Positions 15,583 through 19,708 of a stretch of DNA of 25,200 nucleotides are shown piece after piece. The stretch is from a virus: positions 1 through 25,200 of IMG/VR virus record IMGVR_UViG_3300030390_001042. One strand, written 5' to 3'. The translations under genes and the position numbers were made by a program. Each line of letters opens with the position of its first letter. Position 1 is the stretch's first letter. Below the pieces are notes generated by a model, which was not told the DNA's origin, made no database searches, and saw only the letters and a list, made by a program, of their open reading frames with translations.

Positions 15583-15916
15583 TCCTTATAATCTCAACTG
15601 TAACACTTGTTGGTAAACCTTCAGCTCCTGTTATTTCTTGACGCTCTACATACCCTCGTTTCTTTCCTTTTGTTTTTAATAAAAAAATAGTTGCTGCTGT
15701 ATTTCCTCCTTGTATCTGTTTATGTAATTGACTTTCGGCAAAATCTAAAGCTACGTCTTGTATCTCATCAACTTGTTTTTTAAAATCTAAGTCTTTTAAA
15801 TATTCATAAAACGTAGTTCTTCCAACTTCAGCCTGTCTACAAGCACTTGTAACTACACCTAAAGATTTTTCTAGCGCTTCTATTAAAGCCTTTTTATTGT
15901 GTTCTGTTTTGTTCAT
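15566..15916 (-). CDS. terS: Terminase small subunit-like DNA-binding protein
   Basis: A 116-residue protein just upstream of TerL. Residues 9-50 contain a helix-turn-helix (ALIEALEKSLGVVTSACRQA, then EVGRTTFYEYL), as in phage small terminases that recognise the packaging site. A helical oligomerisation part (DEIQDVALDFAESQLHKQI) follows and a short polar tail ends the protein. Its ATG overlaps the FolE stop (ATGA at 15916-15913), so the modification operon runs straight into the packaging genes. Call based on HTH, length and position. Confidence 0.85.
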   Translation of the reverse strand: MNKTEHNKKALIEALEKSLGVVTSACRQAEVGRTTFYEYLKDLDFKKQVDEIQDVALDFAESQLHKQIQGGNTAATIFLLKTKGKKRGYVERQEITGAEGLPTSVTVEIIRNENKN

Positions 15917-16737
15917 TTTATACAGTTTAAAAATTCATTCCTACATTCCGCCTGATCTTTAAAGAATCCTAATAATTTATTTGTAGTAGTCCAAGTATTA
16001 TGTTTTTTTACTCCTCTCATTTCCATACACATATGTTTTGCTGTTAATGAAACTGCAACTCCTTTTGGCTCTAACTCTTTCCATAAAAACTCTGCAACTT
16101 GTGTTGTTATTCTTTCTTGGTTTTGTAATCTTCTTGAATAAGTTTCTAAAGTTCTTGCTAATTTAGAAAGACCCACAATTTTTTTATTTGGTATATAGGC
16201 TATATGTCCTTCCCCAAAGAAAGGTGCTATATGGTGTTCACACAAAGAATGAAAAGGTATATTTTTTTGTATTATCATCTCGTCATAACCTTCTCCCTCA
16301 AATGTTGTACAGTTCCATTTTGGAGGATTCAAAAATTCCTTAAAAAACTTTATATATCTTTTTGGTGTATCTTTTAATCCTTCCCTTTCTACATCTTCTC
16401 CAAAGTATTGTAAAAGTCTTATAACATTATCCTCTATGTCTCCTTCAGAATTTTCCCAAGGAAACACTAACCATTCATTTTGTAACTCTTCTCTTTTATC
16501 TATTAAAACACTAAAAGGTTTATTATATTTTTTATATCTGTTTAATGTAGTTCCACTATCAATTAAGTCATCAACTATAACATCTGCTTGTTCTATTTTA
16601 TCTACTGCGTTTCCTAATAATCCTGCTACTATTTGTCCTCCTCTTGGAACTCCATAATATTTTGTTTCAGGATCATACTTTGATTTTAAAAAATCTACTC
16701 TATTATATATTTCTGTCCAACTTATTTCTGTTTTCAT
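15913..16737 (-). CDS. folE: Phosphoribosyltransferase-like domain fused to GTP cyclohydrolase I
   Basis: A 274-residue fusion. The C-terminal about 175 residues are a full GTP cyclohydrolase I: CEHHIAPFFGEGHIAYIP (166-183; Cys166 and His169 as zinc ligands), GLSKLARTLETYSRRLQNQE (189-208), and HMCMEMRGV (235-243; Cys237 as the third ligand). This enzyme turns GTP into dihydroneopterin triphosphate, the first step of 7-deazaguanine synthesis. The N-terminal about 95 residues resemble a type I phosphoribosyltransferase: VPRGGQIVAGLL (30-41) and the PRPP-binding loop VIVDDLIDSGTT (53-64). Ordinary FolE proteins lack this extension. It could salvage or hydrolyse purine nucleotides, or regulate the enzyme; its activity is unknown. 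The gene overlaps the small membrane gene upstream and TerS downstream. Confidence 0.93.
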   Translation of the reverse strand: MKTEISWTEIYNRVDFLKSKYDPETKYYGVPRGGQIVAGLLGNAVDKIEQADVIVDDLIDSGTTLNRYKKYNKPFSVLIDKREELQNEWLVFPWENSEGDIEDNVIRLLQYFGEDVEREGLKDTPKRYIKFFKEFLNPPKWNCTTFEGEGYDEMIIQKNIPFHSLCEHHIAPFFGEGHIAYIPNKKIVGLSKLARTLETYSRRLQNQERITTQVAEFLWKELEPKGVAVSLTAKHMCMEMRGVKKHNTWTTTNKLLGFFKDQAECRNEFLNCIK

Positions 16738-16841: not shown

Positions 16842-17570
16842 TTATACTCCTGTTTTTTTATTCCAAATATCTATATGCAATCTAGTTGTAAAATTTAAGT
16901 GGTTCCGGATTGCTAAGTCTACTACTTTTTGTTTATTATTATTTAACAAGTCTTGATTTTCTCCGGCAGGCATTAAATATATTTTACTATGATCTACAAT
17001 ATTAAAATAATCTTTTTTAATTTCTTTCCATTCTTTTTCTCCGTTCACTACAAATTTAAAAATTGTATTTTTTTTATTTAATTTAGCAATGACATCTTCT
17101 TTAAAAGTGAGGGATCTATCGTTTCCACTATTTTTTAATTTAGGACTACAATTCCATAAATCAATATTATTAAATAAATTTTGCTCTGGCATTATTGTTC
17201 CATTAGTTTCTACTTCAAAAAAAACATTTTTATTTATATTACTTTTAACATAATAGATAAATTCAAGTAAAGAGGCTTGTTGCATCATCGGTTCGCCTCC
17301 TGTTAATATTATATGTGCTCCTTTTTTTATTGCTTCAATACAATCTTTTGGTAATATTTTATTAACTTCCATACTTTGTGCTTTCATCCAAACCTCTACT
17401 GTATCACATCTAAATTCTGCATCGTTATGAAGTTCTCCATCAAATTGAGTTCCCATTCCTCCACACATTAAATTACAACCACCTAATCTAACAAACACAC
17501 TTGGGATTCCTACAGTTTTTCCTTCTCCTTGTATTGAATAAAATACTTCACTAATTGCCAGTTTCTTCAT
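16842..17570 (-). CDS. queE: 7-carboxy-7-deazaguanine synthase, radical SAM
   Basis: A 242-residue enzyme that converts 6-carboxytetrahydropterin to CDG. Family marks include ISEVFYSIQGEGKTVGIPSV (6-25), FVRLGGCNLMC (26-36), CDTVEVW (55-61), the TGGEP motif (90-94), FFEVETNGT and NCSPKLKNSGN. The radical-SAM Cys residues are Cys32, Cys36 and Cys55, giving CX3CX18C instead of the usual CX3CX2C; the 16-residue-longer gap (GGMGTQFDGELHNDAEFR) sits between the second and third ligands. Such loops are known in other QueE variants (for example CX14CX2C in Burkholderia), so it is probably active. The gene overlaps queD by 20 bases. Confidence 0.93.
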   Translation of the reverse strand: MKKLAISEVFYSIQGEGKTVGIPSVFVRLGGCNLMCGGMGTQFDGELHNDAEFRCDTVEVWMKAQSMEVNKILPKDCIEAIKKGAHIILTGGEPMMQQASLLEFIYYVKSNINKNVFFEVETNGTIMPEQNLFNNIDLWNCSPKLKNSGNDRSLTFKEDVIAKLNKKNTIFKFVVNGEKEWKEIKKDYFNIVDHSKIYLMPAGENQDLLNNNKQKVVDLAIRNHLNFTTRLHIDIWNKKTGV

Positions 17571-17952
17571 ATATTATAGTACTTGATTTTGTTTCTGCTA
17601 ATTCAATCCTAGTTATTGGAAGTTCTTTTTTTATTCTATTAAATAACCAAATTGCCATATTTTCTGCTGATGTTTCAAAAGGTAATACAATAATTGGTTC
17701 ATTATTAAAATTTAATACTTCAACTAAAGGATCGTTTTTATATAACGCAAAATAATGATCATATTCTTTTATAATAGGTTCAGCAACTTTATCAATGTCT
17801 GAAAACAACATTGTTACTCCGTTGGTCATTTTAGTAAATTTAAACTCACACACAACATCATAGGTATGTCCGTGTAGCCTTCCACACTTTTCTCCTGCTT
17901 CTTTATTTCTGTGACCCATATAAAAATGGTACTTTTTTCTTATTTTAATCAT
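17551..17952 (-). CDS. queD: 6-carboxy-5,6,7,8-tetrahydropterin synthase
   Basis: A 133-residue T-fold enzyme that converts dihydroneopterin triphosphate to 6-carboxytetrahydropterin, the substrate of QueE. The zinc ligands His14 (FYMGHR), His27 and His29 (CGRLHGHTY) are present, as is Cys23, the usual catalytic Cys. The DHYFALYKNDP segment, the TSAENMAIWLF helix and the substrate-binding Glu in ELAETKSS complete the family pattern. Length is normal for QueD. It lies between dpdA (five bases upstream) and queE (overlapping), so the pathway genes are in one unit. Confidence 0.93.
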   Translation of the reverse strand: MIKIRKKYHFYMGHRNKEAGEKCGRLHGHTYDVVCEFKFTKMTNGVTMLFSDIDKVAEPIIKEYDHYFALYKNDPLVEVLNFNNEPIIVLPFETSAENMAIWLFNRIKKELPITRIELAETKSSTIIYEETGN

Positions 17953-17957
17953 TCTTT

Positions 17958-18839
17958 TTAATCTTGGTTTCCTGCAAAGTTATTATATATTTTTTTAAAC
18001 TGCTCTGCTGCAAATGTTTCAGTTCCAAAATACCTTTTATTATTTGGAGTTTTATGTAAAGGAAATTTATTGTCTTTTATTTCTTTCCATTTTGTAAATC
18101 TGTTTTCCCAAATTTGTGATTTTAAATTTTTAATATGATTAATCCCTACTGATGTTTCTATTTTTCCATACTTAACTGGAGATAGCCAACTAGTAGAATC
18201 CGAAGAAGAACAAAATTTGAATTTATTAAAATTATTTTTTTCTGTAAACCCCAACAAATGAATATCAATTTCAGGTTTTTTATTTTTTATGTAATTAGCT
18301 AGTTTGTATAAATATTCTTTTTTTTTAATAAATCTTAACTCAGGAACACTTAAAGCTATATAATCAGAAAATTCAATTAACCTATCTAATCCTTTTTTTC
18401 CATCTTCAAAATGAAATACATTTATAATTCTATTTGGTAGTTTATCTTTCATTTTTATTCTATACTCCCAAGCCTTTTCTACTCCTAATACTTTTTGGCA
18501 ATCAACCTCAACCATCGTTCCTTTATATTTTTCGTAAAGAACATAATCAGTCAAACACTCATACCATTTATCCAAATAAGATTCGTCTTTTTTTCCTTTT
18601 AATGAGCCAAACATTAAAGTAAATAAACCACTATCCAATATATAGTGTTTATATTTAGATGATATTTGTTTAATAATCTTTCTGTCATCTATTTTTCCAT
18701 TCTTAAACATTTTATGTACAAAAGGAAAAGCAGTTCCAAGTCCATAATTAACTTTAGCAGCTAGTGAACTAATTGCGTGGTTCATTTGTTCTGTACCTGC
18801 AAAATGAATTTTTATATTAGATTGGTTTTGTGTTATCAT
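17958..18839 (-). CDS. dpdA: DpdA-type DNA guanine transglycosylase
   Basis: A 293-residue protein related to tRNA-guanine transglycosylases, the enzymes that swap guanine for a 7-deazaguanine. Visible marks: HYILDSGLFTLMFGS (65-79) with Asp69 in the position of the TGT DSGG motif, MVEVDCQKVLGV (109-120), IALSVPEL (161-168), IHLLGFTE (193-200) in the place of the TGT HxxGxG-like strand, and SSSDSTSWLSPVKYG (211-225) with Asp214 as a plausible nucleophile. It lacks the TGT zinc-binding Cys cluster. Context with queD, queE and folE supports a DNA rather than tRNA role. Its ATG overlaps the stop of the T-fold gene upstream (ATGA). The DpdA subfamily cannot be settled by eye. Confidence 0.88.
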   Translation of the reverse strand: MITQNQSNIKIHFAGTEQMNHAISSLAAKVNYGLGTAFPFVHKMFKNGKIDDRKIIKQISSKYKHYILDSGLFTLMFGSLKGKKDESYLDKWYECLTDYVLYEKYKGTMVEVDCQKVLGVEKAWEYRIKMKDKLPNRIINVFHFEDGKKGLDRLIEFSDYIALSVPELRFIKKKEYLYKLANYIKNKKPEIDIHLLGFTEKNNFNKFKFCSSSDSTSWLSPVKYGKIETSVGINHIKNLKSQIWENRFTKWKEIKDNKFPLHKTPNNKRYFGTETFAAEQFKKIYNNFAGNQD

Positions 18840-19168
18840 TTTTCTACTCTAGCCCCGCCCTTTCCATCTTCAAAAATTTCTACCCAAACACCTCCATCAT
18901 CTAAAGTAAATTGTAGCAACTCTTCTGCAATCATCTCACAACTCATATCTCCAAAATTACAAGGATTTCCATAAGATTCAATTAAGTAATCTTTAATAAA
19001 GTCTTGTTGTATAAAAATTTCTTTTTCTCTGTTTAGATCGTCTACTTTATATCCAATACGTATTTGAAAAATATGTCTGTGTTTATGTGCTAAGAAATTA
19101 ACTTTTTTTGGTGGATTAGGATAAAAATGGAATCCTTCAATGTCAAAATCTAATATTACTGTTGTCAT
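18836..19168 (-). CDS. Divergent QueD-like T-fold protein, candidate base-tailoring enzyme
   Basis: A 110-residue protein with the outline of QueD/6-pyruvoyltetrahydropterin synthase: a first His in EGFHFYPNPP (His14), a His cluster AHKHRHIFQIRIGY (27-40) in the place of QueD's LHGHxYxVxV, a strand EIFIQQDFIKDYL like the QueD VIDFGDLK block, a helix SCEMIAEELLQF like TSENLAxWL, and a strand ending VEIFEDGKGGARVE like the QueD Glu motif. The QueD catalytic Cys before HGH is absent (Asn/Phe instead). A true QueD already lies two genes on, so a different reaction is likely. It overlaps dpdA (ATGA). Phage 7-deazaguanine tailoring enzymes, including a CDG decarboxylase (DpdL), have been described; whether this belongs there is a guess. 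Confidence 0.65.
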   Translation of the reverse strand: MTTVILDFDIEGFHFYPNPPKKVNFLAHKHRHIFQIRIGYKVDDLNREKEIFIQQDFIKDYLIESYGNPCNFGDMSCEMIAEELLQFTLDDGGVWVEIFEDGKGGARVEK

Positions 19169-19171
19169 AGG

Positions 19172-19708
19172 TTATTTATTTACTATAAGGTCGTAAATTA
19201 TTTTCTCTTTACCAACAATTTCCTTATCTAAAATGTTAATTAAAGTGTTGTAATCTTCCTCGTTATATTCTAATGTTATTTTATGTTTTTCTATATCATC
19301 TTCTGTTTCATCGGTTTCATTAAAAAAATCTTCAAGTTCTAAGTCTTCTTCAGGCTTCCAAACATCTAAACCCCATTCATTAAGTTTTTCACTTTCCCAA
19401 CCATTTGCTAGTGAATCCCAATCCCATTCCCCAAACCCAATATTATCTTTTATAATAAATTCTTGTTTTTGATCTTCTGTCCAGTCTTTAGCAATCAAAA
19501 TATCTACTTGTTTTAATCCTGCTTCCTGACAAGCCTTTAACCTCATATTACCACCTAGTATTATCATTTGATCATCAACTACTATTGGTCTTTTTTCTAA
19601 CATTTCAGGAAAATCCTTAATAGATTTAACAAGTTGTTTGAATTTATTATCTTTTATTATTCTAGGGTTTTTTGTATTTGTTTTTATTTTATTTATATTT
19701 ATTTTCAT
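19172..19708 (-). CDS. ParB/sulfiredoxin-fold nuclease-like protein
   Basis: A 178-residue protein with an N-terminal ParB-like domain. [20 protein letters not shown] (1-20) matches the usual opening strand and NPR motif, followed by the helix [14 protein letters not shown], the strand [20 protein letters not shown] (40-59) with the GGNMR phosphate-binding loop, and [19 protein letters not shown]. Then comes an acidic tail (about 120-178). Stand-alone ParB-like domains are common in phages, where some act as nucleases and others are linked to DNA modification. It overlaps the HNH gene upstream (ATGA) and ends just before the T-fold gene, so it may be part of the modification operon. Exact activity unknown. 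Confidence 0.8.

Follow-up and report, generated by a model that had tools for sequence, protein, structure and literature searches.

A QueD-like phage protein family that alternates with QueC, pairs with DpdA and is a candidate for modifying CDG

Among the systems described so far, those closest to the protein considered here are QueD, QueC and DpdL. In this pathway, QueD serves as the CPH4 synthase and QueE, a radical SAM enzyme, as the CDG synthase, and QueC (PF06508) is the ATP-dependent enzyme that carries CDG on to ADG/preQ0. DpdL reportedly has been predicted to act as a CDG decarboxylase in phages with dDG. The locus examined in this study is an operon of the same pathway, complete within a virus fragment of 27,311 bases (IMG/VR record IMGVR_UViG_3300030390_001042). 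The first 25,200 nucleotides of that record were analysed as one stretch, hereafter called the window. The operon includes a small gene for a QueD-like protein, and its features are collected in Table 1 together with those of related loci that are mentioned below.

Table 1. Positions of operon genes in the window and of selected genes in related loci (L numbers; all other positions are those of the window)
Feature	Position	Strand	Basis or remarks
FolE (GTP cyclohydrolase I) with N-terminal phosphoribosyltransferase-like region	15913..16737	-	Library matches
QueE (CDG synthase, radical SAM)	16842..17570	-	Library matches
Canonical QueD (CPH4 synthase)	17551..17952	-	CGRLHGH and DH motifs
DpdA-type DNA guanine transglycosylase	17958..18839	-	TGT fold; invariant D69-S-G, D113, D214
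QueD-like protein, PHROG 17812, candidate DpdL	18836..19168	-	T-fold; zinc-type His14/His30/His32; no catalytic Cys
ParB-N domain protein, upstream border of exchangeable cassette	19172..19708	-	Library matches, cassette comparison
GT1-type glycosyltransferase gene	L134:5611-6795
GT1-type glycosyltransferase gene	L142:2452-3474
GT1-type glycosyltransferase gene	L151:3143-4120
GT1-type glycosyltransferase gene	L003:4972-5997
GT1-type glycosyltransferase gene	L099:8563-9675
Methyltransferase-like (class I) gene in queC/family slot	L184:6810-7391
Methyltransferase-like (class I) gene in queC/family slot	L205:7014-7595
Methyltransferase-like (class I) gene in queC/family slot	L206:1367-1948
FolE N-terminal region	L006:1420-1881		PRPP-type motif
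Vut_1/YhhQ-like transporter gene	L040:1528-2040
QueC-like protein of Vibrio phage D479	L207:708-1514	-	CxxC zinc motif, degenerate PP-loop

The gene for the QueD-like protein begins with ATG, encodes 110 amino acids and overlaps the start of dpdA by four bases. Relatives of its product occur in 37 viral contigs at 37-82% identity, with substitutions skewed to third codon positions, and 146 distinct loci with family members were collected in this analysis, which together rule out a chance open reading frame. The protein matches PHROG 17812 (E 4e-19), an entry listed as of unknown function, as do the members from phages phiST and ACP17. Searches of Pfam and NCBIfam with the window protein gave no usable match, a hit to DUF2682 (E 0.16) being dismissed as noise, and no model named DpdL was matched in the Pfam, NCBIfam and PHROG libraries. 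A tblastn search with the protein returned 15 phage records, every one of them annotated 'hypothetical protein', from phages of Cellulophaga, Chryseobacterium, Vibrio, Synechococcus, Rhizobium, Acidovorax, Aeromonas, Xanthomonas and Faecalibacterium, and most of the genes found in this way adjoin annotated folE, queD, queE or transglycosylase genes. Viral contigs hold many more family members than phage records do, and a profile search of genome contigs (alignment A2) yielded five MAG contigs with the family. Megablast of the whole window matched no phage, and the published description of phage MA9V-3 does not discuss the family gene. Among the 146 distinct loci, 140 have a pathway gene in the flanks of the family gene and 138 have a DpdA-type gene there. 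The PHROG 17812 family is old and phage-wide.

Some members are joined to other sequences. The family domain forms the C-terminal half of a protein in locus L092 (and, by eye, in L093), where it is linked to a P-loop kinase-like domain, and the members from phages MA9V-3 and Bakedbeans carry N-terminal fusions in which no domain was identified. Next to the family gene of phiST (gp040, AGO47179.1) lies gp041, which encodes an AAA_18 protein.

An AlphaFold2 model of the window protein, computed from a 32-sequence input (pLDDT 94.4, pTM 0.86), adopts a T-fold. Its best match in the PDB is QueD (Foldseek E 7.8e-6), and comparison with E. coli QueD (4NTK) gives Z 13.3 and an rmsd of 2.1 over 106 aligned residues. 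The structures ranking after QueD/PTPS are dihydroneopterin aldolase, QueF-like proteins and FolE, which all belong to the T-fold superfamily. When the family profile was compared with profiles of the pathway proteins of these phages, the match to QueD had 94% probability (E 1e-7), against less than 1% each for FolE and QueE, whereas the sequence-profile match to PTPS in the PDB (E 0.44) is not significant alone and served for residue alignment only. His14, His30 and His32 align with the zinc-ligand histidines of PTPS/QueD, which lie in the FDAAH and HGH motifs. S76, E78 and E100 align with PTPS residues that grip the pyrimidine ring, a role known from rat PTPS. Leu26 takes the place of the catalytic Cys that QueD has four residues before HxH. 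Invariant where present among the 146 distinct loci are H14, L26, H30, H32, R47, E50, C77 and E100, and R31 is nearly so (144 of 145). The QueD profile alignment offers no counterpart of the Asp-His relay (DH motif), and no such conserved motif occurs in the family.

Much of what the initial annotation had read from this gene agrees with these results. It had described a 110-residue protein with His14, His28, His30 and His32, all four of which are present; it had remarked that no Cys precedes the His cluster, and the corresponding column is indeed an invariant leucine; and the normal queD that it placed in the same operon is intact (Pfam PTPS E 9e-23). The T-fold that it expected appears in the model with QueD as the best solved match, and alignment with the PTPS/QueD zinc ligands is consistent with the putative metal site. 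Its set of histidines, however, holds only for His14, His30 and His32, since only 45 of 145 members have a histidine at position 28. It also missed the invariant Cys77, which lies C-terminal to the cluster. Judging from conservation, the family keeps the pocket and a zinc-type metal site, has lost the QueD reaction and has fixed new polar residues.

The place of the protein in the pathway can be read from the genes with which it does and does not occur. Loci were picked by similarity to the window QueE, blind to the presence of the family, and among the 80 so fetched there are 35 with the family, 29 with queC, 16 with neither and none with both (Fisher p 1.3e-10, a value calculated before de-duplication and with kinship ignored, which the tree counts below address). 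With repeats removed, the 68 remaining loci comprise 32 with the family, 24 with queC, none with both, three with a methyltransferase-like gene instead and nine with none; in these last nine the slot reads empty because the contigs start at or just upstream of queD and the slot is cut off. Three short queC ORFs of about 145 codons occur in the QueE-fetched set. In a wider set of 58 whole records that carry the family, 56 give no match to the QueC profile; for comparison, 331 phage records have a QueC relative. The two exceptions, Vibrio phage D479 and Xanthomonas phage X1, were considered as carriers of both genes and rejected: by eye, the match in the former is a divergent QueC-like protein encoded some 100 kb from the family gene, and that in the latter resembles NAD synthase (NadE-like). 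The exclusion therefore places the family protein at the CDG branch. Exchange with queC speaks for this branch point and not for a particular reaction.

A comparison of 51 operons in which all genes are readable revealed that the slot between parB and queD is filled by dpdA-queC, by family-dpdA, by dpdA-family-glycosyltransferase or by dpdA-methyltransferase. Each cassette type keeps one gene order, namely parB-dpdA-queC-queD-queE-folE (21 of 51 operons), parB-family-dpdA-queD-queE(-folE), which is the window type (15 of 51), parB-dpdA-family-glycosyltransferase-queD-queE-folE (13 of 51) and parB-dpdA-methyltransferase-queD-queE-folE (2 of 51). On trees of these same operons, the cassette type changes three times for DpdA, which is the minimum, nine times for ParB, 15 times for QueD and 19 times for QueE, compared with about 24 changes when the types are shuffled. 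A larger set of 59 operons gives 21 changes on the QueE tree and four on the DpdA tree. QueD and ParB adjoin the cassette and yet do not track its type as DpdA does, so linkage alone is no explanation. Taken with the exclusion of queC, the few changes on the DpdA tree indicate that the family stands in functionally for QueC at CDG and is matched to its DpdA, and the simplest reading is that every DpdA specifically recognises the base that its own cassette produces. Three methyltransferase-type operons have neither queC nor the family, and their DpdA clusters with the queC type.

The window DpdA matches the TGT of Z. mobilis (1p0d) with Z 17.4 over 263 residues; D69, D113 and D214 are invariant in 21 sequences, and its subfamily is found only together with the PHROG 17812 family. 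The coupling of a QueD-like protein to dpdA, proposed in the initial annotation, is thus borne out by context and by co-inheritance with a DpdA subfamily. The duplication that it also proposed finds no such backing as a recent event within this operon: the family is ancient, is about 15% identical to QueD and has spread through very different phages.

We believe that the family protein probably acts on CDG to make another modified guanine, which protects phage DNA from restriction. The reading we favour, with moderate confidence, is that it is a metal-dependent T-fold enzyme that decarboxylates CDG to 7-deazaguanine, which the partner DpdA puts in DNA. Decarboxylation is the most economical reaction because the protein offers a zinc-type site and a retained guanine-like pocket, together with two conserved arginines, and lacks a site for a cofactor. 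The family protein would receive CDG from QueE at the step for which other phages use QueC. The retained glutamates E78 and E100 would bind CDG, R31 and R47 would hold its carboxylate close to a zinc ion coordinated by H14, H30 and H32, and E50 or C77 might protonate C7 as CO2 leaves, giving 7-deazaguanine. DpdA could then swap guanine in phage DNA for this base, yielding dDG and restriction resistance. The earlier suggestion that the protein acts on CDG by carboxyl removal is supported by context and fold as far as the CDG branch is concerned, with the chemistry standing as a best guess.

Other functions deserve consideration in light of the same observations. The QueD fold and the zinc-type site would be expected of a second QueD acting as a spare or improved CPH4 synthase, but this proposal is highly improbable given that the operon already has an intact queD, as do most relatives (within the fetched flanks of the family gene in 98 of 146 loci), that every member lacks the catalytic Cys and the Asp-His relay and that exclusion of queC would not be expected of a spare QueD. 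Loss of the QueD catalytic triad with retention of the ring-binding positions would also suit a non-catalytic partner of DpdA that binds CDG and hands it to a CDG-specific DpdA, in which case the DNA base would be dCDG. Such a protein should generate the same pattern of exclusion and pairing, and the tie between each family type and its own DpdA subfamily is as expected of a physical partner. However, a carrier has no need for the invariant R47, E50 and C77, the near-invariant R31 and the full zinc-type His set kept across the 146 loci. Furthermore, DpdA subfamilies besides that of the window (dpd5 and dpd6) also accompany the family, a pattern more in keeping with a common small-molecule product than with a common contact surface, and we consider a carrier role rather unlikely.

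A similarly small chance is given to a different change of CDG, one that makes a group for a glycosyltransferase to decorate and whose product in the window is the final base. Of the 146 distinct loci, 58 carry a GT1-type (GT-B-like) glycosyltransferase gene along with the family, and this gene never accompanies queC (the L142 protein scores 37 bits against Pfam Glycos_transf_1, cut-off 26), and the conserved family residues are identical with and without it. Some members may indeed do something else, because 7-deazaguanine has no obvious sugar acceptor except carbon 7. Against this, the 110 residues show no evident cofactor site, so that few reactions besides decarboxylation would be available, and the glycosyltransferase might target carbon 7 of 7-deazaguanine or something else. 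Three possibilities exist for phages with this gene: glycosylation of carbon 7, a different product, or another target of the enzyme. The objection is weaker for the window because the glycosyltransferase is absent from its clade (43 rows). Among isolated phages, ACP17 has the family together with a glycosyltransferase, and the flanks of the phiST family gene showed no such enzyme. If decarboxylation is the reaction, it is conceivable, albeit doubtful, that the family and the glycosyltransferase form a route to glycosylated 7-deazaguanine in phage DNA, of which the window would be the simpler, sugar-free branch. To our knowledge, this type of hypermodified guanine has not been described in phage DNA.

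Additional observations concern other genes of these operons. The N-terminal region of about 100 amino acids in the window FolE, and likewise in that of L006, contains the PRPP-type motif VIVDDLIDSGTT. In related loci, about one FolE ORF in two has this phosphoribosyltransferase-like region, irrespective of cassette type, and phage BUCT-ZZ01 has a xanthine-guanine phosphoribosyltransferase as a separate gene. The region may recycle guanine set free by DpdA. A Vut_1/YhhQ-like transporter gene is present in L040 and ten other loci, part of the window's clade, and wherever it occurs in the operon the family is present too.

The family is probably the predicted DpdL, and it occurs in phiST, reportedly a phage from the DpdL work of Cui et al. 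PMC13329287 and PMC12783734 both cite Cui et al. 2023 (NAR 51:9214). Novelty of the enzyme itself, as suggested in the initial annotation, is accordingly doubtful, given that the protein already falls within PHROG 17812, and if the family is DpdL, the window protein belongs to a kind that has a predicted function only. What is new, and undescribed in the literature as far as checked, is the cassette exchange, the strict pairing with DpdA and the cassettes with a glycosyltransferase or a methyltransferase. A widespread phage family that lacked an assigned role thereby gains a testable function, and phages are seen to exchange a tailoring enzyme and its matching DpdA as one cassette within a constant folE-queD-queE operon. 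Such swapping means that gene content predicts the DNA base and that pairs of DpdA proteins are ready for the study of base specificity, and the glycosyltransferase and methyltransferase cassettes hint at DNA bases open to direct search.

Viewed against the known systems, the family resembles QueD (PTPS, PF01242; 4NTK) in its full-length T-fold, its three zinc-ligand histidines, its ring-holding Glu and its place in the same operon pathway. It departs from QueD in having Leu26 for Cys, no Asp-His relay and a shorter length, as well as the invariant R47, E50 and C77 and the near-invariant R31, and the Pfam PTPS model is blind to it. Like QueC, it fills the same slot at the same metabolic branch point, although the folds are unrelated and QueC is tied to other DpdA subfamilies. 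With DpdL as it is reportedly described, it shares the phage folE-queD-queE-dpdA set without queC and the expected substrate CDG; the glycosyltransferase partner and the cassette exchange are not known to belong to that description. Finally, for PHROG 17812, the entry of unknown function to which the window protein belongs, the present analysis supplies a fold, a set of conserved residues and a genetic context.
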